The notes below the pieces were generated by a model. The model was given only the letters and a program-made list of their open reading frames with translations, had not been told where the DNA came from and ran no database searches. From the NCBI GenBank assembly GCA_937922655.1, contig CALAJH010000064.1:1-47782 (forward strand): 47,782 bases of DNA, written 5' to 3'. The stretch's first letter is position 1. The number at the start of each line of letters is the position of its first letter. Below are positions 20,782 through 35,064 of the stretch, piece by piece. The translations under genes were made by a program, and so were the position numbers. The DNA is from an uncultured Bacteroidia bacterium. Lineage in GTDB: Bacteria; Bacteroidota; Bacteroidia; J057; CALAJH01.

Positions 20782-23700
20782 TTACTCCACCACCACTTTC
20801 ACCGTGTGCATAAGCGCCGCTTTGAGTTGCAGCATGTATACGCCTTTGGCGAACTTGGAGATGTCTACGGGAATCTCGTTGGAACCGGCGACAACCGATA
20901 CCGTCGAGCGATAGATAATTCGTCCCGCAAGGTCGGTAACGGCCAGTTCGGCGCGCGTGTCGCTTTCCGTAGCCAACGTTGCGGTAAAGACGCCTTGGCT
21001 AGGATTCGGGTAAACGGTTAAACTTTCGTTTGCGTTCACCACCATAGCGTCCGCTTCACGATTGGCGGGTAAGGTAAACGTGTACTCTTGCGACCACGGT
21101 CCGAACGTCGTGCCGCAACGCGAACGAATGCGGAAGCGATACGTCGCGCCGGGGATGAGGTTTTGGATGGTATAGGACGTGTTGGCCGTTGTGGTCGAAG
21201 TCCAGTTGTCGACCGTCGAACGGCGCCACGATACCGTATATTGGCCGGCGCCCTGCGCCGCCGTCCATGACGCCGTTACATTCGTTCCGCTGATGGTAAA
21301 CGTTACGTTCGTCGGAGGCGGACATCCGTTGAAGAGTACCGATTGGCTGAAGGCCGAGCTTTGACCACCCGCGCATATCGTACGCACTTGCACTTCGTAC
21401 GTCGAACCCGACTGCAGCCCCGTCAATTGTACGGAAGTCGCCGTCGTGGACAACACCGTCCATCCGCTCGTCGCCGTTCCGGTAACGCCGTAACGTACTT
21501 CGTAAGAGACCGCACCTGAAACCGCGTTCCAGCTTGCCAGACCCGAAGCGTTGACCGTCAAGCCCGTCGGAGTCGTGCACGTTCCACCCGTACTCACGGT
21601 AACGGTGGTCGAACCCGTACATCCGTTCGCGCTTGTAGCGTTCACCGTGTACGTTCCCGCCGAAACGTTGCCGAACGTGGTCGTCGAGCTTACGTTGTTG
21701 TTCGTCGCAATCGTTACTCCGTTAAGAATCAAGCTCACGGAATAAGGAGCGTTGCCGCCCGATACCGTTGCCGTAACCGTAGCGTTGGGCGCGGTCGTGG
21801 CCGTAGCGGATACGGTCAGGTTGCCAATCGTAACCGTTCCCGTCGCCGACTGAGGCGTGCAACCCGCCGCCGTCGCCGTCACGGTGTAAGTCGAAGTCGT
21901 CGTCGGGGAAACGGTGATGGTCGAACCCGTGGCCGTAAAGCCGTTCGGTCCCGCCCATGCAAACGTTACGTTCGAGGCGCCCGTGGCATTGGCCGCCAAC
22001 GTGGCGGAAGCGCCGGGACAAACCGTTGTCGAACCCGTTACGTTCACCGCAAGGTTGCACGGAGCCGCACCCCCGCAGTTCGTGATTTGGCAAACCACCG
22101 TACGCGTCAAGCTTACGCTCGCCACCACGGATGTACCGCCTACGACGTTGTTCACCGGCGTGGTCGCTACAATTGTCGGCGTACCCGTTTGAGTACCGGC
22201 GGCGTTGGAAGCGTTCCACGTCAAATTGGAGCTGTTGCAACCGTCCACCGAGCCTTGCAAGCCCGTTTTGATGAGATAAAAGTTCGCGGCGGCGGAAGCG
22301 TTTTCGCCAAACGAACGCGTCGAACCGAAGACCGCATAGCCGCCGTCCGCCGTTTGCACGAACGAACGCGCCAAATCGGAACCCGTGCCGCCGTAGGCCA
22401 CACCCCATTGTACCGAACCGTTCGACGCGTTCGCCGACAACAAATACGCTTGATTGCCGTTGCCCGCACTTTGCGTCGAACCCGTAATCACGTAATTGCC
22501 GTTGGCATTGACATCCAAATAGTAGGCAATGTCAAAAGACGTGCCGCCGTAAGCATTGGCCCAGACCACGTTGCCGTTCGTCGCGTTGATTTTCACGATG
22601 TAAGCGTCCGCCGAACCGGTGCCGAAGCTACGAGTCGAACCCGCCAATACGTAGTTGTCGCCGTCGGCGGCAATCGAGTAGCCTTCGTCGCGTTGAGAAC
22701 CGCCGTAGTTTTTCTGCCAAATCGTCGCACCGTTGGTTTTGTTCGTTTTGACCACGTAAACGTCGCCGCTCGTGCCAAAACTCGAAGTAAAGCCTACGGA
22801 GACAAAGGCGTCGGCCGTTTCGATGGTCTCATAACCAATGTCTTCGTTAACGCCACCGAAAGTGCGTACCCATTCGACGTTGCCCGTACCACCGACTTTC
22901 ATCAACAAGAGGTCGCGATCGGTCGAGCCCGTCGCTTTCAAGGCGTCGCCCGTAAGGATATAGCCTCCGTCGGACGTTACTTGTACGTCGTAGAAGCGAC
23001 GTGCGTCCGTACCGCCGAACTTGCGTTCCCAATTGATGGTACCGTTGGCGTTGATGTTAAGCAGGTAGGCCGTATAAGCTTCGCTACCGAAGCTCGAGCT
23101 AAAGCCCGCCACCGCATATCCACCGCCGGGCAAGACCGCAACCGAACGGCTTTCGTCGTCGAAGTTGCCGCCATAGGTACGTTCCCATTCGATTTCTCCA
23201 CAGGCGCTCACTTTCGCCAGATAAGCGTCGCGATTGCCGGCGTTGGAAGTATACCCGGAGATGACGTAGCCGCCGTCCGCCGTCGATTGTACGTCGTAGC
23301 CTTCTTCAAGCGCCGCGCGTCCGATGGCCAACTGGAATTGCGCCGGTCCCGCGGGAGCGCCGCAGCCTTCGGCCACAATCAATCCGCAACCCGACGATAT
23401 CGTCGAACCGCAAACCGTCGAAACTTGCAGGTCGTAAGGTACACAGTTCAATCCGCTAAGCGTCGCCGACGTTCCCGTAACGTTCAAGGTCGTGAACGTC
23501 GAAGTTCCCGTCGGACGATATTCCACGCGATATCCCGTCGCGCCCGAAACACCGTTCCACGAAAGGTTGATGGCGTTCGTTCCCGAGGTCGCGGTCAAGC
23601 CCGTCGGGCAACCGCAAGCAATGTTCGACAACGTTACACAAATCCGACGCGGAGCCGAGATTTCACCGCCCGCGCATACGCTCAGCACTTGGAAGCAGTA

Positions 23701-26700
23701 CTCCTCGCCCGGAATCAATCCTGCGATGGTTACCGTCGTTGTGTTGCACACTTGGCCGTAGGTCGTGAACGTTCCATCTTCCAACAAGCCGTATTGTACA
23801 ATGTAACATTCGGCCGTTTGCGACGGCGTCCACGTCAAGGTACCGCCCGTATTGCTCGTTTGGTTGAACGCAAGCGCGGCGGGACGGGTACAGCCTTGTA
23901 CGCAAGGCAATTGGAAATCTTCTTGAATATAGTCGATAGAGGTCGCGCCGTCCACGCATATCGTACGAATACGTACCGAATACGTGCTGCACGCTTGGAA
24001 CACGTTGTTCAAATCGACCCATTCCGTCGTCGGAGCGTTCACCAAGGCCAACGGCAGATAGGGACCGGACGTACCCAACTGGCGATATTCAAGGATGTAG
24101 GCTTGGGCTATCGGCGCCGTCGCCCAGCTAATGCGGAACGGACTTTCGGTTGCGAAGATTTGGATGCCCGTCGGAGCGGCGCAAGGCGGCAAGGGCGGAT
24201 TGCCCAAGACCACAATGCTCGTCGCGGAGCAAAGGTGGTTGTTCGCATCGGAATCCGCCGTTACAACGATTTCGTAAATGCCGGCGGGGCGATTGACGCA
24301 AATCGGAGTCGTCGGGCGCGGACCTTCGTAAATCAACGTCGTTCCCACCGTAATGCGGTAGCCGCCAACAACGGGGCCGTTCGTTACATTGACACAGATT
24401 TGGCCTTCTTGTCCGTAAACCGCCGGATCTTGCCACGTCGCAACAAATTCGGGCGATTCGTAAACCGTTACCGTTTGGGACGTGGTGTAGGAACAGTTGT
24501 CGCGGAAACCGGCGTAGGTCAAGGTATACGTACCCGGGCCGACCGACGGGAAGAAGAAGCGTCCCACCACGCCGGGGCCGGAATAGAAGCCCGAATCCGG
24601 AACTCCCAACATCGTAACCACCGGGTCGTTGGTGCAATACGTCGCTTGCAAGCCGTTGAGTTGTGCGTTGATGTTCGCAATCGTCTCGACAATGGTTATC
24701 GTTTCCGTCGTCGTGTACGGACAACCCAAATAAATACCGGAATAGGTGATGGTATGGGTACCGATGCCGGCAGCCAAGGGGCTAAATATGTTGCCCGTAA
24801 CGCCGGGGCCGGAGAACGTTCCGCCCGCCGGAATCGCCGTCAAAGTAAACGGTTCGGCCGTGCGGCAAATTACGTCAAGCACGTTGGCAATTTGCGCCAC
24901 CGCCGGCAGGTTGATGCGCACGTTTTGCGACGTGGCGTACGAACAGCCGTTGTACGTCCCAAAGTACGTTACGATGTAGTTGCCCGGTTGCAAGGTTTGG
25001 CCGATGGGCGGGAAGATACCGCCGGTCAGCGTCGTCAATTGCGAACCGTTCGACAACACGAAGATACCGCCCGGAGGAGTTCCCGTCAAAATGTCGGGTT
25101 GCGTACCTTGGCTGTACTGGCAATAAATGTCGCTCAAACCCGAGATGCTCGCAATCGGAGGCTCGGTAACCGTAACCGCAATGGTCGTCGTGTAGGCGCA
25201 GTGCGCTATCACGCCGCTATACGTAATATAATACGTACCCGGGCCTGCGGAAGGAATAAAGTTGTTGTTGGCGTCGAGCGCGGGAATGCCGTACGAACCA
25301 ATCGGCGATTCCGTTCCTTCGAACGCCACGCTGAGCGTACCGCCGCCGGGCATACCGCAGAGTTCGATGGGGGCGTCCTGCGTGCAAAGTTGCGCGCCGT
25401 CCGACAAACCGTTAATCATCGGTACGGGGGCGGGAATCACTTGAATAAACGTATCGGCGGTATAAGCGCAATGGTTCGTTCCCAAAATGCTACCCGTGTA
25501 CACAATCGTGAAGATACCCGGACCCGTAATTGCGGGCGAGAATTGATTGCCGTTGATGATGCCGTTAATCGGGTTGGTGAACCACGTTCCGCCGGCAACG
25601 TTCGATTGCAAGGTTACGGGCGGGGCCGTCGTGCAATACGGAGATTCGAAGCCGAAGATGTTGACCTGTTCGGGCGCGACGACGTTGATGTTCCACGTCG
25701 AAGAGTAGGTACAACCGCCATCGATACCCGTGTAGCTAATCACAAAGTCGCCGGGGCCGGCCGCGGGATTGAACATACCGTTTACCCATGCCGGAACGCC
25801 CGAAAAGCTGATGGCGGGCGTTACGTTCCATGCGCCGCCCAACGGGAAGCCCGTCGGCATCACGGGTTCGTCCGTAACGCAATATTGCGTTTGCAAGCCG
25901 GCGATAACGGAAACGGGCGGGTCGCTGACCGTGATTTGGAACGTCGTGTAGTACGGACAACCTTGATACGTGCCGCGATAGATAATCGTGTACACGTCGG
26001 CGCCCGTAGCGGGGTTGAAGTAGGTGTTGCCGAAACCGTCCGTCGGGATGGTAACCTCGCCCAAAACGCTCGAACGTTTGTAGCTGAACGTTCCGCCCGC
26101 CGGCGTACCCGTCAATTGTACCAAACCGTAGTTGGTGCAATATTCGAGGGCCAAGCCGGTAATCGTCGCTTCGGGAGCGCCCGTAATCGTTACCGTGCGC
26201 GTCGTCGAATATTCGCAACCGCCGATATCGCCCGAATACGTAATGGTGTACGTGCCGGGGGTCGGGGCGTTTTGCGGATTGAATTGTGCTTGGCCCGTAC
26301 CGGAGTTGATTATCAATCCCGGAATGTTGGACGAGAAGCTACCCGTAGCCGGCGTACCCGTCAATTGTACGGGAGCCGCCGTAATACAATACGGTCCCGC
26401 CAAACCGTTGATGGAAACGACCGACGGAGGCGCCGTGACGAGAACGCGTTTTTGCACGATAAACTCACAGCCGTTGTAATTGCCGCGGTACGTTATCATG
26501 CACTCGCCGGGACCCGCTATCGAGGGATAGAAGAAATTGCCGCCTTGGATCGTACCCACGGGGCAGTTCGTTTCAAAAATACCGCCCGCCGGGAAGCCGC
26601 CCATTTGCACGGGACCGTCCGACAAACAATATTCGCTTTCAAGATTAAGGATTTCCGCCACCGGGGGAATGGTAACGTTTACCGTCGCCGTAACCGTATA

Positions 26701-29700
26701 TTGGCAGTATTGGTAAGTGCCGCTGTACGTAATAACCACGGGGCCGGACAAACCGGCGGGATTGAAAACGCCGTTGGCAACGCCGGGGCCGGAGAACGTA
26801 CCGCCACCCGGGAAGCCTTGCAACACTATCGGAGCCGACGTTTGGCAATAAAAGTTCGGTAGGTTGGTAATCGCCGCCGCAACGGGAGGATTGACGCAAA
26901 CGATGCGGGTCGTCGTATACGCGCAAAAGTCGTTTACGCCGCTGTACGTGATTTCATAACAACCTACGCCCGCCGCGGGATTGAATTGATTGCCGTTGAT
27001 AATGGCGCCCGCGGGAACGGAGGTGAACGTGCCGCCCGAGGGGAAACCAACCAACGTAGCGGGAGCGGCGTTCACGCAGTAAGCGTTGTCCAAACCGCTT
27101 ATCGTCGGCGTTACCGGCGTACCGATGCGAACGATGCGCGAAGTCGTGTAACTACATCCCCCGAAGTTGCCCGAGTATGTAATCAAATAGCTGTCGGAGG
27201 GGATGGCGGTGTTGAAAATAATCGAGCTACCCGAACCGATGAGGGCGTTGCCGGGGTTGGGGGTGATGCTGAAATTACCGCCCGCAGGAGAACCCGTTAC
27301 GCTGACCGGACCGCTGTTGATGCAATATCCGTTTTCCAAACCGGAAATGACCGGCGTGGGCGGAGGCGTATTCGTAACCGTAACGGACGTGGAATAATCA
27401 CAACCGCCGACGTTGCCCGAATACGTGATGACGTGCGTTCCCGCCACCGCCGCATCGTAGAACCATACGCCATTGTTGAAGAATATCACGCCGTCGTTGG
27501 GTACTGCGCTGTAAGAACCGCCCGGGGGTTGCGAACCTTGAATTTGGAACGCGCCCACCGTCGTGCAATACACCGGCAAAAGATTGATGCTCTGCGGAAC
27601 GGGCGGGTTGTTTACCACCACCGTGATGCTCGTGCTGTAAGCGCATCCGTTCAAATTGCCCGAATACGTGATTTGCACTTGGGCGCCCGTCGAACCGGCG
27701 TTAATCGCCGCCGGATTGAATACGCCTCCGGCAGTTATACCTTCACCCGAGAACGTACCGCCGTCCGGGAAGCCCGTCATGACCACAAACGGGTCGTTGG
27801 TGCAATACGGCCCTTCGTAGGACGGGGTAATCGACGGGGTCGGCGGTTCGTTGACCAAAACGAATACCGTCGTTTCGTATTCACAACCATTGACGGAGCC
27901 GGAGTAAGTAATCGAATACACGCCTTGCGGCAAACCGAAAGGATTGAAACAGGCGCCGCCGGGGCCGCTCATCAGGTTGCCGCCGAAAGGCCCGGGCGCA
28001 AAGAACGAACCACCCGCGGGCGTCGCCGTCAAGCACAATTGCGTGCCGTTGGAACAAAGCAAGCCGTTGGAGGGAACGCCGAAAATTTGCGCCGTCGGGC
28101 TGGTAACGATTTGTACGTTGACCGCCTCGTAAAAGTCGCAACCGTTAATCGACGTACCGAAATATTCAATCGTGTAAACGCCGGGGTTCAAAGACGAGGG
28201 ATTAAAGAAATATTGCCCGCCGATGCTTTCCACGCCCGGACCTTGAATAATTCCTCCCGAAGGACTGCCGCTGATGGCGACCGCCGCGTCGTTGGTGCAA
28301 TATTGCGGGCTAAGGCCGAGAATATCCGCGTCCGCCGTTTGCCGCACCACCACTTGAATCGAAGTAGAATAGCCGCAACCGCCCGATACGCCTTGATAGA
28401 CGATGGTGTGCGTTCCCGCACCCGCCAACGCAGGGTTGAATTGCGACGTACCCGAAATAATGCCGGGGCCGCTGAACGTACCGCCCGTCGGAACGCCCGA
28501 AAGGTTAAGAATGCCGCCGCCCGAGCAGACGGGGCCGTTGTAGCCCAAGATTTGGGCCGTCGGACTTTGCAAGACCACAAAGTTGCGCGTCGTCGTCGCC
28601 GAACATCCGTTTTCCGCTACCGTATACGTGATTTGATACGTGCCGGGATTGCCGTTGAACGCCGAAGGATTCAACACGTTGCCGTTCAATCCGCCTTGCA
28701 CGTTCGGCGAAAGAACGAATTGACCGCCCGGAGGCGTCGCCGTTACCGTAATCGGATTGTCCGCGGTACAGAAAGACGTGGGCAGGCTCGTGATTTGCGC
28801 GTTCGGGTTGGGAACGATGTTCACCAACGTCGATAGCGAATAGGGACATCCGTTCAATTGACCGGAATAAACCACGACGTGTTGGCCCAACGAAAGTTGG
28901 CTGGGGCAAAAGACCGCCGAAGTTACGCCGTCGATGGAGAACGTGCCGCCCGACGGCGTGCCTATCAAAGTGATGCAGGGGTCGGCCGAGCAGTACGACG
29001 TATTCAAGTTCACCGTTACCGTCGGGGAGACGTTGACCGTTACCACCACGGAAGTAGAGTAAAAACAGCCGTTGGAAGCAACGCCTGAATACGTAACGGT
29101 ATGGTTGCCCACGCCCGCCGTTTGGGGACAGAAGGTGTTGCCCGTAACGCCGGGGCCGGCAAACGTACCACCCGCCGGCGTACCAACCATCGTTACACAG
29201 GCGTTGTTCGTACAATACGTCGAAGACAAACCGGAAATAAACGCTTGCGGCGTGGTATTGACCGTTACTTGGCGCGAAGTCGTGTAGTTACAACCCGTCG
29301 AAGGGTCGTTGCCGCTGTAAGTAATCGTATAGCTGACGCCGCCCGTCAAGCCCGAAGGACAGAAACGGAACCCGTCAATCGAGTTGCCTTGAATACCCGG
29401 GCCGCTAAACGTACCGCCCGCAATGCTCGCCGAAAGATTGTAGCAGGCGTCGCCCGTGCAAGCGATGTTCGGCAAACCTTGAATCACGACCGTCGGGTTG
29501 CCGATAATCGTGAACGTTTGGCTGGTCGTATAGTTGCAACCGTTAAACGTGCCGCTGTACGTAACCGTATAAATTTGGCCCGCCGGTAAAACGGAAAGTT
29601 GCAAAATGTTCGGAGCCACAAATCCGTTGGCGGGGCCGGAGAACGAGAACGTTCCGCCCGCCGGCGTTGCTTGAAGAGCGATGTTACCCGCGCCTTGGCA

Positions 29701-32700
29701 GTATTGCGTTGCCAAGTTGGTAATTTGCGGATTGACTTGATTGACGAAAATCGACGCCGTCGTCGAAGAGCCGCATCCTTGGGCCGAGGTGAACGTCGCC
29801 GTCAAAATATTGGCTTGGTTGAAAACCACGCCCGCACCCGAAGGATTAAAGAAATAGTTCGTGCCGTTAAACGATACGCCCGGACCCGTGATAACGCCGC
29901 CCGGAGGATTGGTACCGATTTGAATCGGCGCGGAGTTGTGGCACGTCGATGCCGGCAAACCAACAATCGACAAACCCGGCGTTTGATTGACCACCACCGT
30001 AGTCGATACGGAGTATTGACAATCGACGCCCGGCTCGGTCGAGGCCGCTATACCCGAGTAAGTAATGGTATTCGACCCGATGGTGGCCAACGCGGGGTTG
30101 AAGGCGCCTTGCGGCGTAATGCACGTTCCGCACGAGGCGCTGAACGTTCCGCCCGCAATCGACGCGGTGTATTGTTGCAAACCGTCGGCGGAGCAGAACG
30201 GACCCGCAGGGCCGCTTATCGTCGGTACGCCGCCGGCGACGCTCACCACGCGAAGCGTACGCGTCGTGCTGTAAGGACAACCGTTCAACGAACCCGAGTA
30301 GGTAATCAAATAGTTGCCCGGCGTCAATCCCGACGGATCCCATACGCCCGAACTGCTTGTTACCCCCGTACCCGAAAACACGCCGCCCGCGGGAGTACCC
30401 ACCAATTGAACGGCCGACGAGCTTTGACAGAACACCGATTGTTGCGGAGCGGTGATTTGCGGTTGCGGGTCGTTTATCGTAATTGTAATCGTCGAAGAAA
30501 AATCGCAAGGATCGGTTCCCGTCCACGTAATTTGAAATACGCCGCCGCCCACCGCTTGGTTCGACGGTCGGAACGTGATTTGATTGCCGTTGACGACGGC
30601 GTTGAGCGTATTGGGAACGATGGTAAAGTTACCGCCCGACGGAGTCGCCGTAATTACCACGTCTTGGTTGTCCGAACGACAGAAATGGTTGGCGGGGTTG
30701 TTTTCGTTGGAACGGTTGGGGTTGATGGCGATGGTCGACGCCGTGGGGGGACAGTTGATTTTGGTTACAAAACCGTCTTGTCCGCCCGCATTGGTGCTTT
30801 GAATAAACACGCCGGCGGGTTGAAGCGTAGGATAGTTGGTCGAGGCGGTAACGCCGGCGATATACACCGCGCCCGAGGCGTCCACGTCGATGCCGCGAGG
30901 TTCTTCGGAAGCGCCGCCGCCCAAATAGGAATTGTAAATAACCGCACCGTTGGAATTGAGTTTGGCAAAGTAAACATCCTGCGTACCGCTAAGCGAACTG
31001 CCGGCGTTGCCGTTGCCTACCAAAGGAAATACGGTGGCCAAGTTGGCGCTTTGGGTCGCGCCCGCCACGTGGACGTTGTTGTTGTCGTCGAAAGCAACGG
31101 CAAAGAGATTGTCCACGCCCGAACCGCCGAGATAGCTGTACCATTGGCGTTGTCCGGTCGCGTTGTAGGTAATAACCGCACCTTCGGAAAATCCGCCGGA
31201 GTTGGGGTTGATGACCGTACCTTGGGCGCCAAAGAACGAAGGCGAACTGCCGACGCCGGCCGCCACCGCAATCCTTCCCGCAGCGTTGATATCGACGTCA
31301 TAACCCGCCTCATTCGCACCGGCGTTGCCAAAGAACGTTACCCAATCGCGGGTGACGGCGCCGGCGGAAATCGAAAACTGCGCCACAAAACCGTCGCCTT
31401 CCACGGGCGAACACGTTGCACAACCAATCACGGGGTTTTGCAAAGCCACGCCCGAGTTCGACCGGGCCGAACCCGTGATGACAAGTTTATTGTTGCCGCC
31501 GATGGCCAAGCCGTAGAGCAGGTCGTTGTTTTCGCCGCCGAAGTATTGTGCGAAATCGCGGGCACCGGAGGCGGCGTTGAACCGCAATAAGAAAGCGTCG
31601 TTTTCGGTGGCGTCGGGATTGCCTTGGGAATAAGAACCGGCCAAATTGACGGTAACGAGGTCGGAAGAGTTGGAGGTACCGCCGACGTAGAGGTAAACGC
31701 CGTCGGGGCTGAAAGCCACACCTTCGCCGCGGTCGACGCCCGAGGTCGCCGGTTGTCCGTCGCCGCCGTTGAACCCGCCGTAGAGCGTGGCCCATGCAAA
31801 AGTACCGTTGTCGTTGAGTGCGAGAACGAAAGCGTCGGCGCCGCCGCCACCGTAAGTGGACTGGGATGCACCCGCGGAAACGAAAAAGTTAATCGGGTCG
31901 CCGGGGGGAGTCGGGGTTACGCCTTGGGTGAAAGCGCCCGCAAAACCGGTAACGGCGATGTTGGCGCTCGTGCCGGCACGCACGGTAACGGCGTTGGCGC
32001 CGTCGATACCGCGTCCGCCGTGAATGGTGCGCCACAAACGCGAACCGTTGGAACGATAACGCACGATGAAAGCGTCTTGCGTTACGGGGTTGGAGGCGTT
32101 GCTAAAATTGACGTTTTCGCCAAGGTTGGGAATGGTCGTCCATTGCGCGGTCGAACCGCAAACGAGTACGTCGCCGTTGGGAGCGACGATTACGTCGTTA
32201 ATTTCGTCGAACTGTCCCGAACCGAGGTAAGTGGACCAGACGAAGGCAAGGGGGTCGATGACGAGATCTTGGGAGGCGTCGTAGTTTCCGACGTCGAAGG
32301 TAACGACGCCGTCGTTAAGCCGGTAAGCGGCCGCGACGGTGTTGGAAACGCGGCCCTGATAGACGAGCGGGGCGTTTTCAATCACACGACCGTAGGGGTT
32401 GGCAATGTCGAGCCGGCCGTCGGCTTCGATGCCGACCTTTTCCGCCGCATTGTAGCGCAGGCGAATGTCCGAAACCCGCCCGCCCGGATGTACGACAAAG
32501 TCGTATTTGAGGGCGGGAGCGTTTCCGTTTTCGGCTTGGCTGTAAAAGACCAAGTCGATTTTGGGATAGACGTTTTTGTAGACGATGCTACGAAACGCCC
32601 GAACGCCGGTCACGGGAGCGGCAAGGCCCGGAGTGTAGAAGTGGGTTTCCCCTTCTTCCTCGGCCCATAAACCGCGCTCCACCTCCACGTTGGGATTCGA

Positions 32701-33012
32701 GCCCAAAAGCTCCAAATCCATACGATACAGACCGGTAATGCGCGTATAACGCCCGGCGGCCATTGTACCGGACTCCACGCGGGGAAAGACGAAGCTGACG
32801 CGGTCTTTTTGGAAAAAGAGCTTCGCGCCCTCTACGTCGGCCGTGTATAGGACGTCCGGCCGCGAATTGCCGTTAAGGTCCGCTACCTGCCCACGGTTCT
32901 CCGTGAAGCTGACACTGCGGCGCCCCAACAGCCCTTCGGCATTCGGACCGTCCGCCGCCCTTGCCCAATGACTGAGCAAAAACAGCAGCACCAACAATAA
33001 ACTGTTTCTCAT
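20782..33012 (-). CDS. Giant T9SS-exported multidomain surface protein (4076 residues)
   Basis: A signal peptide (MRNSLLLVLLFLLSHWARA) is followed by an FTENRGQV-type domain (to about 265) and an SBBP-type beta-propeller (about 265-750; repeated YxGGxxxD and VAGxTxS units). Twenty-six tandem modules of about 80 residues occupy about 755-2855, each with two cysteines in a YC...PAGGTFSGPGV...TITYSG...GCxYTT pattern. Three or so Fn3 domains (about 2945-3225), a second propeller (TADGGYVISGYTSN units, about 3228-3595), a PKD-like domain, a SprB-like repeat and two Fn3 domains follow. The C-terminal 85 residues are a type A T9SS sorting domain (LTVYPNPSQGVF ... KGVYMLQL). It should be exported by T9SS and attached to or released from the cell surface; adhesion or matrix binding is inferred. 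It has its own promoter and terminator. Confidence 0.93.
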   Translation of the reverse strand: MRNSLLLVLLFLLSHWARAADGPNAEGLLGRRSVSFTENRGQVADLNGNSRPDVLYTADVEGAKLFFQKDRVSFVFPRVESGTMAAGRYTRITGLYRMDLELLGSNPNVEVERGLWAEEEGETHFYTPGLAAPVTGVRAFRSIVYKNVYPKIDLVFYSQAENGNAPALKYDFVVHPGGRVSDIRLRYNAAEKVGIEADGRLDIANPYGRVIENAPLVYQGRVSNTVAAAYRLNDGVVTFDVGNYDASQDLVIDPLAFVWSTYLGSGQFDEINDVIVAPNGDVLVCGSTAQWTTIPNLGENVNFSNASNPVTQDAFIVRYRSNGSRLWRTIHGGRGIDGANAVTVRAGTSANIAVTGFAGAFTQGVTPTPPGDPINFFVSAGASQSTYGGGGADAFVLALNDNGTFAWATLYGGFNGGDGQPATSGVDRGEGVAFSPDGVYLYVGGTSNSSDLVTVNLAGSYSQGNPDATENDAFLLRFNAASGARDFAQYFGGENNDLLYGLAIGGNNKLVITGSARSNSGVALQNPVIGCATCSPVEGDGFVAQFSISAGAVTRDWVTFFGNAGANEAGYDVDINAAGRIAVAAGVGSSPSFFGAQGTVINPNSGGFSEGAVITYNATGQRQWYSYLGGSGVDNLFAVAFDDNNNVHVAGATQSANLATVFPLVGNGNAGSSLSGTQDVYFAKLNSNGAVIYNSYLGGGASEEPRGIDVDASGAVYIAGVTASTNYPTLQPAGVFIQSTNAGGQDGFVTKINCPPTASTIAINPNRSNENNPANHFCRSDNQDVVITATPSGGNFTIVPNTLNAVVNGNQITFRPSNQAVGGGVFQITWTGTDPCDFSSTITITINDPQPQITAPQQSVFCQSSSAVQLVGTPAGGVFSGTGVTSSSGVWDPSGLTPGNYLITYSGSLNGCPYSTTRTLRVVSVAGGVPTISGPAGPFCSADGLQQYTASIAGGTFSASCGTCITPQGAFNPALATIGSNTITYSGIAASTEPGVDCQYSVSTTVVVNQTPGLSIVGLPASTCHNSAPIQIGTNPPGGVITGPGVSFNGTNYFFNPSGAGVVFNQANILTATFTSAQGCGSSTTASIFVNQVNPQITNLATQYCQGAGNIALQATPAGGTFSFSGPANGFVAPNILQLSVLPAGQIYTVTYSGTFNGCNYTTSQTFTIIGNPTVVIQGLPNIACTGDACYNLSASIAGGTFSGPGIQGNSIDGFRFCPSGLTGGVSYTITYSGNDPSTGCNYTTSRQVTVNTTPQAFISGLSSTYCTNNACVTMVGTPAGGTFAGPGVTGNTFCPQTAGVGNHTVTYSGVASNGCFYSTSVVVTVNVSPTVTVNLNTSYCSADPCITLIGTPSGGTFSIDGVTSAVFCPSQLSLGQHVVVYSGQLNGCPYSLSTLVNIVPNPNAQITSLPTSFCTADNPITVTATPPGGQFVLSPNVQGGLNGNVLNPSAFNGNPGTYQITYTVAENGCSATTTRNFVVLQSPTAQILGYNGPVCSGGGILNLSGVPTGGTFSGPGIISGTSQFNPALAGAGTHTIVYQGVSGGCGYSTSIQVVVRQTADADILGLSPQYCTNDAAVAISGSPSGGIIQGPGVESIGGQYFFNPSSLNPGVYTIEYFGTSINGCDFYEAVNVQIVTSPTAQIFGVPSNGLLCSNGTQLCLTATPAGGSFFAPGPFGGNLMSGPGGACFNPFGLPQGVYSITYSGSVNGCEYETTVFVLVNEPPTPSITPSYEGPYCTNDPFVVMTGFPDGGTFSGEGITAGGVFNPAAINAGSTGAQVQITYSGNLNGCAYSTSITVVVNNPPVPQSINLLPVYCTTVGAFQIQGSQPPGGSYSAVPNDGVIFFNNGVWFYDAAVAGTHVITYSGNVGGCDYSTSVTVTNTPPPTPVISGLENGYCINSGPVSVTGSPAGGNFSITPNPGNALIGSGSSIIFNTAIPSDSYLITYSGNFGGCSYTTSRIVRIGTPVTPTISGLDNAYCVNAAPATLVGFPSGGTFTSVPAGAIINGNQFNPAAGVGCYEITYSGVNDFCAYTTTRIVCVNPPVAAAITNLPNFYCQTSAPIVLQGFPGGGTFSGPGVANGVFNPAGLSGPVVITYSGTYQYCQYTVTATVNVTIPPVAEILNLESEYCLSDGPVQMGGFPAGGIFETNCPVGTIQGGNFFYPSIAGPGECMITYRGNYNGCEFIVQKRVLVTAPPSVVSINGLAGPYCITAAPVQLTGTPATGSFSSNIPGLIINSGTGQAQFNPQNAPTPGTYTITYSGDIGGCEYSTTRTVTITGAPEATITGLALEYCTNYGLVQLTGTPAGGTFSYKRSSVLGEVTIPTDGFGNTYFNPATGADVYTIIYRGTYQGCPYYTTFQITVSDPPVSVIAGLQTQYCVTDEPVMPTGFPLGGAWNVTPAISFSGVPAWVNGMFNPAAGPGDFVISYTGIDGGCTYSSTWNINVVAPEQVNIFGFESPYCTTAPPVTLQSNVAGGTWFTNPINGIINGNQFSPAITGPGIFTIVYTGSILGTNHCAYTADTFIQVIPAPVPMINGLSDGAQLCTQDAPIELCGMPGGGTLSVAFEGTESPIGSYGIPALDANNNFIPSAGPGTYYITYSGVIAHCAYTTTIAVTVTEPPIASISGLSDIYCQYSQGTQPDILTGTPPGGIFVLSNGSQLTTLTGGIFPPIGQTLQPGNYIVTYFGTYNGCSYATSQNVRINLPAVAQIANVLDVICRTAEPFTLTAIPAGGTFSGPGVTGNIFSPLAAGIGTHTITYSGIYLGCPYTTTETITIVETIANINAQLNGLQATYCTNDPVVTMLGVPDSGFYSGPGVVGRFFFPSVGPGTYTLTYAGFRDNCSYTTSQTVTVYESPEFVATWQDPAVYGQEGQICVNVTNGPVVGGYRITVGTTLIYEGPRPTTPICVNRPAGIYEIVVTADSDANNHLCSATSIVVLGNPPLPPCAAPTGIQIFATESPFRISWATAPIAQAYILEYRQLGTSGPYLPLALVNAPTTEWVDLNNVFQACSTYSVRIRTICVDGATSIDYIQEDFQLPCVQGCTRPAALAFNQTSNTGGTLTWTPSQTAECYIVQYGLLEDGTFTTYGQVCNTTTVTIAGLIPGEEYCFQVLSVCAGGEISAPRRICVTLSNIACGCPTGLTATSGTNAINLSWNGVSGATGYRVEYRPTGTSTFTTLNVTGTSATLSGLNCVPYDLQVSTVCGSTISSGCGLIVAEGCGAPAGPAQFQLAIGRAALEEGYDVQSTADGGYVISGYTSNAGNRDAYLAKVSACGEIEWERTYGGNFDDESRSVAVLPGGGYAVAGFSSSFGSEAYTAYLLNINANGTINWERKFGGTDARRFYDVQVTSDGGYILTGDALKATGSTDRDLLLMKVGGTGNVEWVRTFGGVNEDIGYETIETADAFVSVGFTSSFGTSGDVYVVKTNKTNGATIWQKNYGGSQRDEGYSIAADGDNYVLAGSTRSFGTGSADAYIVKINATNGNVVWANAYGGTSFDIAYYLDVNANGNYVITGSTQSAGNGNQAYLLSANASNGSVQWGVAYGGTGSDLARSFVQTADGGYAVFGSTRSFGENASAAANFYLIKTGLQGSVDGCNSSNLTWNASNAAGTQTGTPTIVATTPVNNVVGGTSVVASVSLTRTVVCQITNCGGAAPCNLAVNVTGSTTVCPGASATLAANATGASNVTFAWAGPNGFTATGSTITVSPTTTSTYTVTATAAGCTPQSATGTVTIGNLTVSATATTAPNATVTATVSGGNAPYSVSLILNGVTIATNNNVSSTTTFGNVSAGTYTVNATSANGCTGSTTVTVSTGGTCTTPTGLTVNASGLASWNAVSGAVSYEVRYGVTGTATSGWTVLSTTATSVQLTGLQSGSTYEVQVRTICAGGQSSAFSQSVLFNGCPPPTNVTFTISGTNVTASWTAAQGAGQYTVSWRRSTVDNWTSTTTANTSYTIQNLIPGATYRFRIRSRCGTTFGPWSQEYTFTLPANREADAMVVNANESLTVYPNPSQGVFTATLATESDTRAELAVTDLAGRIIYRSTVSVVAGSNEIPVDISKFAKGVYMLQLKAALMHTVKVVVE
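24450..30760 (-). repeat. 26 tandem ~80-residue two-cysteine modules in the giant gene
   Basis: About 6.3 kb encode 26 consecutive copies of a module of 72-90 residues. Each starts near I-x-G-L-x-x-x-Y-C, contains G-x-P-x-G-G-x-F, then a Y-x-I-x-Y-S-G strand and a second Cys in G-C-x-Y-T/S-T. The spacing of the two cysteines suggests one disulfide per module. Some DNA stretches recur almost unchanged (for example CGCCGGGGCCGGAGAACGT near 24801 and near 26781), indicating duplication with partial homogenisation. Confidence 0.85.
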
Positions 33013-33075
33013 CGAGTTTATCTTACTATAAATATGTTTTGGAAACTTCTAGGCTATACCTTTTTAGTCCAATCG

Positions 33076-33104
33076 CAAAATTATGCAATCCCACGCAAAT
33101 ACAA
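33076..33104 (-). promoter_or_regulatory. Promoter of the giant surface-protein gene
   Basis: On the minus strand TTG (33104-33102), an 18-nt spacer and TAATTTTG (33083-33076) match the Bacteroidota -33/-7 layout. The predicted leader before ATG 33012 is about 55-60 nt. Confidence 0.5.
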
Positions 33105-33439
33105 TAGGTTTGCCAAATTTTTTTTTGCGTTCGATGGACTAAATGGAAAAAATCCTTCGTTTTTTCCCCGTACGGCCAAAATCGTATGCCCATTTTTGAT
33201 GGAATTTTCCAAATAGAATACGTTTTTTATGCTATATGTAGAAAAAACGACCCGATTACACGCCCATAACGCCGAAATCGGGGAACTTATTGTGAAAAGC
33301 CCATTTTATGGTTTGCATACCGACCTACAAGCGAAAACCGCACTAAAACGCGGGCTTCGCGGACTCAAACACACTCTCTCGCCGGCGCCACCGTTCGGCT
33401 CCTCACCAAAGACGTCGCCCAAAAAGCGCTTATTGCATT

Positions 33440-33455
33440 TAACTTTGTAAATTTG
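33440..33455 (+). promoter_or_regulatory. Two abutting TAnnTTTG elements before the HyfC-like gene
   Basis: TAACTTTG (33440-33447) and TAAATTTG (33448-33455) lie end to end, both full matches to the -7 consensus, 45-60 nt before ATG 33500. A -33 TTG at the usual distance is not clear. The tandem arrangement may give two staggered start sites. Confidence 0.45.
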
Positions 33456-33469
33456 CAACCGTCGGCCAC

Positions 33470-33493
33470 GGAAAGGAAAAAGGAAAGGAAAAA
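33470..33493 (+). promoter_or_regulatory. Duplicated 12-nt purine tract at the ribosome-binding position
   Basis: GGAAAGGAAAAA occurs twice in direct tandem (33470-33481 and 33482-33493), ending 6 nt before ATG 33500. It supplies repeated AGG/GGA motifs that could pair with 16S rRNA, unusual in a window where most genes lack a clear Shine-Dalgarno. Confidence 0.55.
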
Positions 33494-33499
33494 AAGAAC

Positions 33500-34414
33500 A
33501 TGGCGGGATTGCTATTGACCTTGGCGTGGAGCGGGTTGATTCCCGGAGCGCTCAATCGGGTGCGCAGCGCCTTGGCCGGGCGCAAAGGGCCCAATATGTG
33601 GCAATTTTTCCACGACATTAGGCGGTTGAGCCGAAAATCGACGGTTTACGGAGAAACAACGACGTTCGTTTTTCGATGGGCGCCCATCGTGTATTTAACG
33701 TCGCTGTTGTGCGCCTTGTCCACGCTTCCCTTGGGCGGTTCGCCCGCGCTTTTGGCCTTCGAAGGAGACTTCATCTTTTTCGCCTACGTCATGGCCCTAG
33801 GCAAATTTTTCATGATAGCGGCGGCAATGGACACGGGCAGTCCGTTCGCGGGTATGGGCGCGGTGCGCGAGGCTTTTTTTTCTCTTTTGGCCGAACCCGC
33901 ATTTTTCATTTTGTTAGGCTCGTTCGGCCTGCTTACCGGCCAAACTTCGTTCGCCGAAATATTCCGGAACGTGCATTTGTCGGATTCGTCGGCCTCGGCG
34001 CTGTTGGGGGCGTTGGCCGGTTATTTGCTGTTTGAAATTGCGCTCATCGAAACGGGACGCGTGCCCTTCGACGACCCTTCGACCCACCTCGAACTCACCA
34101 TGGTCCACGAAGCCATGATTCTCGACGCCTCGGGTCCCGATTTGGCGCTCTGGAACTACGCCGGCGCCTTGAAAATTGCCGTTTACGGCGCTTTAATCGC
34201 CGGCTTTTTCGTCTCCCCCGAACTGCCGCTCTGGGCCGCGACAATCGTTTACATCATCGTACAGCTCGTTTTCACTTCGGCCATCGGCCTAAGCGAATCG
34301 GTGCGTCCGCGTTACGCCATGCGCGACAACGGCAAACGCATCTTCGCAAGAACCGCCCTTGCCGTACTCATTTTCTTTACCGTGCTGCTCATCACCCATA
34401 AACTCGACGGCTGA
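33500..34414 (+). CDS. HyfC/HycD/NuoH-family membrane subunit (respiratory-complex or group 4 hydrogenase type)
   Basis: This 304-residue polytopic membrane protein (about 8 helices) resembles the NuoH/HyfC subunit that links the catalytic arm to the proton-pumping membrane arm. Diagnostic segments are RKGPNMWQFFHDIRRL (family RRGPxxxQxxxDxxKLL), MALGKFFMIAAAMDTGSPFAGMGAVREA (family DTGSPFxxIGxSREA) and the acidic loop ETGRVPFDDPSTHLELTMVHE, which matches the loop near the quinone/proton channel. The DTGSPF motif favours the HyfC/Ehr branch over true NuoH. The stop overlaps the ATG of the next gene by one base (TGATG), so they are translationally coupled. No hydrogenase large or small subunit, Fe-S protein or antiporter subunit is present in the window. 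Confidence 0.85.
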   Translation: MAGLLLTLAWSGLIPGALNRVRSALAGRKGPNMWQFFHDIRRLSRKSTVYGETTTFVFRWAPIVYLTSLLCALSTLPLGGSPALLAFEGDFIFFAYVMALGKFFMIAAAMDTGSPFAGMGAVREAFFSLLAEPAFFILLGSFGLLTGQTSFAEIFRNVHLSDSSASALLGALAGYLLFEIALIETGRVPFDDPSTHLELTMVHEAMILDASGPDLALWNYAGALKIAVYGALIAGFFVSPELPLWAATIVYIIVQLVFTSAIGLSESVRPRYAMRDNGKRIFARTALAVLIFFTVLLITHKLDG

Positions 34415-35064
34415 TGCAAGACCTATTGACCATCCTATTCACGGGCGCGTCGGTGTATTTGGCCGTAACGACGCACACCCAAATATTGGCGCGCCTGCTT
34501 TTTTTGCAAGGACTGTTGCTGTCGGGATTGGCGCTCGTCGAACTCGGAAACCCAACGACGACGGGTCACGACATCCCCGTCTCCCACCACACGCCGTGGT
34601 CGCCGGCGTTGATTCTGCTCGAAACCGTCGCGTTCAAAACGGTTTTGGCGCCATGGTTTTTGTCCCGGGCCGGAAAAAAAATCACCGTTTGCGCCACGGG
34701 CGGCTTTGGCAACATCGGCGCGGTCGTCGCCATTATCGTCTCGAGTTTTGCGGTCGCTCATTCGCTCGACGACTCCAAAATCCACACCGCCTATTTCTCT
34801 TCGGCCATCAGTGCGGTGTTCATCGGCTTTTACCTCATAGTTTCGAGAAAAAGTTTATTGATACACCTTGCGGCGTATCTGCTCATGGAAAACGGTATTT
34901 TTATGTTGGCGCTTGCGCTTGGAAGCGAAATGCCGATGGTCGTCCATACGGCGATTTTGGCCGACGTACTCACCGCCTTTCTGCTCATGGGTATGCTTTT
35001 ACGGCGTATTGACGAACAGCTCCACGCCACAGAATCCGAACCGCTCAGCCGGCTCAAAGACTGA
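34414..35064 (+). CDS. HyfE-like membrane subunit (NuoK-related)
   Basis: This 216-residue integral membrane protein has about 6-7 helices and resembles the hydrogenase-4 component E family, in which the C-terminal half is NuoK-like. The segment LLIHLAAYLLMENGIFMLALALGSEMPMVVHTAILADVL carries the family's conserved glutamate (YLLMENG), thought to take part in proton translocation. It begins in the stop codon of the HyfC-like gene, so the two are made together. The products should form part of one membrane complex. The partner subunits (HyfB/D/F antiporter-like, HyfG/I catalytic) are not in this window. Confidence 0.8.
   Translation: MQDLLTILFTGASVYLAVTTHTQILARLLFLQGLLLSGLALVELGNPTTTGHDIPVSHHTPWSPALILLETVAFKTVLAPWFLSRAGKKITVCATGGFGNIGAVVAIIVSSFAVAHSLDDSKIHTAYFSSAISAVFIGFYLIVSRKSLLIHLAAYLLMENGIFMLALALGSEMPMVVHTAILADVLTAFLLMGMLLRRIDEQLHATESEPLSRLKD

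Follow-up and report, generated by a model that had tools for sequence, protein, structure and literature searches.

The window analysed here, a stretch of 47,782 nucleotides that makes up contig C64 in the draft genome of an uncultured Bacteroidia bacterium, carries a HyfC-like and a HyfE-like gene side by side, and it raises the question of where the rest of the complex to which such subunits belong might be. The preliminary description of this locus had called the pair an orphan, and had offered two readings of it: either the genes for the complex are distributed over the genome, or the two subunits have been adapted to a new, reduced complex.

The two open reading frames are present exactly as first described, with a HyfC/EhrB-like (NuoH-type) membrane subunit of 304 aa at 33500..34414 and a HyfE/EhrC-like membrane subunit of 216 aa at 34414..35064, both on the plus strand, both with an ATG start and both backed as genes by their codon use. 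The HyfC stop and the HyfE start have one base in common within TGATG (34412..34416, plus strand), suggesting translational coupling; the same one-base overlap is seen in two relatives (loci L044 and L136). HyfC matches Pfam PF00146 (NADHdh) with 100.4 bits (E 1.6e-28), and its family profile scores 119 bits against HycD of the E. coli formate hydrogenlyase and 80 bits against MbhM. It is not the NuoH of NADH:quinone oxidoreductase, as the NuoH equivalog models fall far below their cut-off, and its residues R28, D90, D111, R123, E124, E132, E184, D191, E198, E204 and E266 are common to all 88 of the 88 aligned homologues. The HyfE-like protein scores below the cut-off of both the NCBIfam hydrogenase 4 membrane subunit model (45.8 bits, cut-off 136) and the NuoK-type model PF00420 (22.4 bits, cut-off 26.1). 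Despite these scores the name is safe, because the protein is 31-41% identical to the gene that lies directly 3' of HyfC in the intact operons of relatives. Its predicted structure (pLDDT 81) is a bundle of seven long helices, for which the PDB gave no match at E <= 0.001.

The surroundings of the pair lie outside the complex. On the left there is, as the preliminary description had it, only a giant gene of 4076 aa on the other strand (20782..33012, minus), which has a secreted-protein-like start and many repeated domains. The 487-bp intergenic region between this divergent gene and HyfC (33013..33499) is the probable place of the promoter for the pair. On the right follow a phosphoribosyltransferase (PF00156; 35528..36058, minus strand), a response regulator, a thiolase, an SDR, an SSF symporter and others. 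Whole-genome searches with PF00361, PF00346 and PF01058 gave no match on contig C64 (47.8 kb), so the isolation of the pair within the window is real.

The same searches gave a different answer for the genome. The source genome (G000) is a draft assembly of 3.58 Mb in 84 contigs, with 100% completeness and 0.74% contamination; it holds eight genes for PF00361 and three each for PF00346, PF01058 and PF00146. Ehr and complex I genes were told apart by translation and by comparison with intact operons: two sets of these family members belong to complex I, and the remainder are a HyfB-like protein of 605 aa (C11, about 87376-89193), a HyfF-like protein of 469 aa and a HyfG-like protein of 466 aa whose genes overlap by 4 bases (C1, about 118147-120953), and a ferredoxin-HyfI fusion of 264 aa that constitutes the small subunit, HI (C30, about 31210-32004), each in single copy. 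The claim that the pair has no hydrogenase or antiporter partners thus holds for the window and fails for the genome; the orphan reading falls, and it is the split across the genome that was borne out. A duplicate origin of the pair would call for another complete cluster that has C and E subunits of its own, and none was found. That possibility was rejected because the other two PF00146 matches are the NuoH of the two complex I sets (336-403 bits; HyfC 101 bits) and a HyfE search of the genome returned a single match, the window HyfE itself.

Every kind of Ehr subunit is therefore encoded once: NuoL-like, NuoH-like, HyfE-like, second antiporter-like, large and small. The single cluster that is typical of Ehr, though not essential to the class, is absent, the genes occupying four loci on C64, C1, C11 and C30. 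Each locus lies well inside its contig with unrelated genes around it, and all six genes are full-length open reading frames, free of stops and with host-like codon use. Tetranucleotide usage of the four loci correlates with that of six other contigs of the genome at r 0.975-0.988, compared with 0.20-0.55 for unrelated loci. Contamination as the source of the loci was rejected on this composition.

To which class the scattered set belongs is decided by HyfG. It has SICGDTAIGH in the place of RxCGxC and DLSYCG in the place of DPCxxC, so that RVCGIC and DPCYSC of E. coli HycE correspond to SICGDT and DLSYCG, and of the four canonical NiFe cysteines no more than one, the first of the N-terminal motif, is retained. 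The four NiFe-ligand cysteines that define a group 4 NiFe hydrogenase (Hyf or FHL) are accordingly not found in this protein. Loss of the NiFe ligands is the mark of the energy-converting-hydrogenase-related (Ehr) complexes, a family still without an assigned function (PMC6349859, PMC10284858, PMC4378227). Given a HyfG devoid of the NiFe cysteine set, we assign the six genes to an Ehr complex. In Ehr naming the window pair would be EhrB/EhrC, EhrB presumably being the name for the NuoH-like subunit, here HyfC. The remaining key residues are in place: HyfB keeps the pump residues E123/K188/K316/E371 and HyfF keeps E124/K209/K325/E380, these antiporter Glu and Lys being intact in nearly all relatives too, and HyfHI keeps all 12 Fe-S cysteines, eight of the ferredoxin domain and four of N2.

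The relatives indicate how the set was once arranged. In three genomes of the same class (G027, G078 and G046) the genes B-C-E-F-G-HI form an intact operon on one strand, with HyfC at about 50% identity. Among 80 further Bacteroidota loci retrieved by HyfC (L038-L117), the operon is complete and in order in 57; another 21, all of them at or close to the end of a contig, are incomplete, and 2 are odd. A second HyfB-like gene lies directly upstream of the first in 44 of the 80 (for example L047, 5924-9978), where the source genome has one. An intact operon is also found on a Variovorax plasmid, and Niastella vici (L098) is a cultured carrier of one. In an even draw of 395 genomes of the phylum, HyfC and HyfG occur in the same 17; they are about 2-3 kb apart on one contig in 16 of these carriers and on separate contigs only in the source genome. 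Phylogenetic analysis, as the preliminary description had proposed for HyfC, places the source genome as sister to a Bacteroidia clade in the C, E and G trees and near that clade, with weak support, in the F and HI trees; it forms a long branch, which could mean relaxed constraint. Based on operon linkage, co-occurrence, composition and trees, we infer that the scattered genes descend from one operon. The flanks of about 60 operons lack a conserved partner enzyme, the best cluster being present in 8 loci, and no donor or acceptor could be named from neighbours; the NfnAB-like or paaE-like neighbours seen at L033 and L034 are no general feature of these operons.

The dispersal is not peculiar to the Ehr genes. 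In the source genome both complex I sets are likewise broken up, their NuoA, B, D, H, L, M and N mostly standing apart. These sets are distributed over C1, C8, C21, C24, C25, C26, C30, C32, C33, C44, C45 and C58, with NuoK-NuoL still adjacent on C32. Near this last pair on C32 lies a 1224-aa open reading frame with a Cas9-like start (L016, 10879-14553; MARILGLDLGANSLGWALIDD). Wide spacing of the PF00361 pump genes is typical across 22 genomes of the same order and extends to G012, an assembly of 3 contigs. HyfC is found in no other sampled genome of the order. Two Cytophagales MAGs (L054/L124/L130 in G080 and L084/L125/L131 in G081) show a similar dispersal: in each, the Ehr genes that could be located occupy three places, namely C, G and HI for one MAG and B-C, E-F-G and HI for the other. 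Because complex I pump genes are dispersed throughout the order and these two MAGs are scattered as well, the split is part of a lineage-wide scattering of respiratory operons that has also happened elsewhere. A search of open-access main text gave no paper on scattered Ehr genes.

Taken together, the presence, single copy and intactness of the genes, their key residues, their linkage and co-occurrence in relatives and the absent NiFe ligand set give us good confidence that the pair represents EhrB (HyfC/NuoH-like) and EhrC (HyfE-like) of one Ehr complex, whose ancestral B-C-E-F-G-HI operon was broken into four loci (C-E, F-G, B and HI) as part of the scattering in this lineage. What the four pieces encode is most likely a complete, redox-driven ion pump. 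The products of the four loci would still assemble, with HyfC as the membrane dock for a peripheral arm made of HyfG and the ferredoxin-HyfI fusion, and with HyfE joining this arm to HyfB and HyfF, the two antiporter-like pumps. A soluble low-potential donor may supply electrons at the ferredoxin domain, and these would travel over two [4Fe-4S] clusters to N2 and on to an acceptor at the HyfG/HyfC pocket, which would not be H+ since the NiFe site is gone. By analogy, electron flow could then drive HyfB and HyfF, coupled to it by HyfC and HyfE, to translocate H+ or Na+. The Ehr family is suspected to assemble and to translocate ions. Ehr complexes as such are already known, and what is new here is a deep-branching member with a full set of Fe-S ligands.

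This ligand set bears on the best surviving alternative, namely that an Ehr complex is assembled from the scattered genes but is no longer redox-driven: its peripheral arm would be vestigial, and it would act as a membrane ion channel or antiporter, or else as a redox sensor. HyfG has no NiFe site, and most Bacteroidia relatives are without N2 and one ferredoxin cluster while all pump residues are kept. The N2 ligands are absent in 62 of 79 Bacteroidota small subunits, which typically have Asp, Cys, Asp and Asn for the four Cys, and one ferredoxin cluster is absent in 64 of the 79, the other being kept in all 79 (the HyfHI loci to which this observation refers are L033, L034, L035, L040-L117, L143-L157 and L138, L033 being an example of an N2-less relative). 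The same pattern of Fe-S loss is found on plasmid pMESIL01 of Allomeiothermus silvanus. If these losses hold in function, electron transfer to the usual site thus seems to be out of reach for most relatives, and the pump residues stay intact in those that have lost the N2 ligands. The source genome, unlike them, retains every one of its Fe-S cysteines, its iron-sulfur parts being better preserved than in most relatives, and we therefore regard a non-redox complex as unlikely here.

For the relatives themselves, we tentatively raise the possibility that most Bacteroidia Ehr complexes, which have neither the NiFe site nor the N2 ligands yet retain the pump residues and a single [4Fe-4S] site, operate with no electrons passed on to the usual site, as complex-I-like machines driven or gated otherwise; the scattered complex, which would keep the ancestral full redox chain, could serve as the natural comparison. 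In rooted trees the source genome is the deepest Bacteroidia branch and has all ligands, with weak support. A single loss of N2 in Bacteroidia, as read from the first rooted tree, was called into question by deeper sampling, in which the N2-complete G176 and L040/L041 fall among N2-less groups (with weak node supports). Two or more losses, or a replacement of the gene, are as likely. No report of N2 loss in Ehr was found in open-access main text. Setting the source genome against relatives with decayed clusters would provide a direct test of whether Ehr complexes need electron transfer.

It is much less probable that the scattered genes are functionless remnants of a decaying operon. The long branch of the source genome and the lack of HyfC elsewhere in the sampled order would fit such decay, but six intact reading frames with conserved pump and Fe-S residues and host-like codon use argue against it. 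There is still less to be said for HyfC and HyfE as a new, reduced two-subunit complex. The two genes have been kept together in the source genome, and a Cytophagaceae contig (L039, 4622-6242) has HyfC-HyfE with no HyfB in the 4.6 kb upstream, although that contig ends just after E. Against this, every pump and peripheral-arm subunit is present once, intact and equipped with the residues that a functioning complex should have, the gene content is found together in 17 of 17 genomes, and the invariant charged residues of HyfC are those of the full operons. The HyfE of L039 is the closest to the window HyfE among those aligned (41%). Finally, an assembly or binning artefact that misplaced fragments of one operon into four contigs, conceivable in a draft of this kind, is about as improbable. 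Each piece sits far from the ends of its contig, surrounded by unrelated genes that match it in composition; moreover, complex I is scattered throughout the order, the 3-contig assembly among them, and two Cytophagales genomes have a scattered Ehr set as well. Removal of this false orphan has a practical consequence: since some lineages scatter their operons, lone genes of the complex I superfamily should be checked genome-wide before a new complex is proposed.

Comparison with known systems places the scattered set among its homologues. Respiratory complex I (Nuo) belongs to the same superfamily, and its two sets in the source genome are likewise scattered; the Ehr genes are separate from both, and HyfC is distinct from both NuoH copies. 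The subunits are homologous to those of E. coli hydrogenase-3/-4 and formate hydrogenlyase (HycCDEFG, HyfBCEFGHI), with HycD as the best solved match for HyfC and HycE for HyfG. Unlike the E. coli formate hydrogenlyase, the set has a HyfG that has lost the NiFe cysteines, H and I are fused, and no formate dehydrogenase partner was identified. An example of Ehr is the EhrA-1 / EhrC / EhrL / EhrS cluster of Geobacter sulfurreducens (GSU0739-45; PMC7894505). Compared by kind of subunit, it resembles our set in having a NuoL-like pump, a HyfE-like subunit, a large subunit without the NiFe CxxC and an Fe-S small subunit; compared by description, our set differs in having its genes in four places, one HyfB and a ferredoxin domain fused to the small subunit. 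The same six genes, also without a NiFe motif, are found in an operon on plasmid 3 of Variovorax sp. PBL-E5 (L136, WDLP6_RS34470-34495). Its HI fusion has 52% identity to that of the source genome and all 12 cysteines, but the Variovorax genes stand as one contiguous operon where those of the source genome are spread over four loci.
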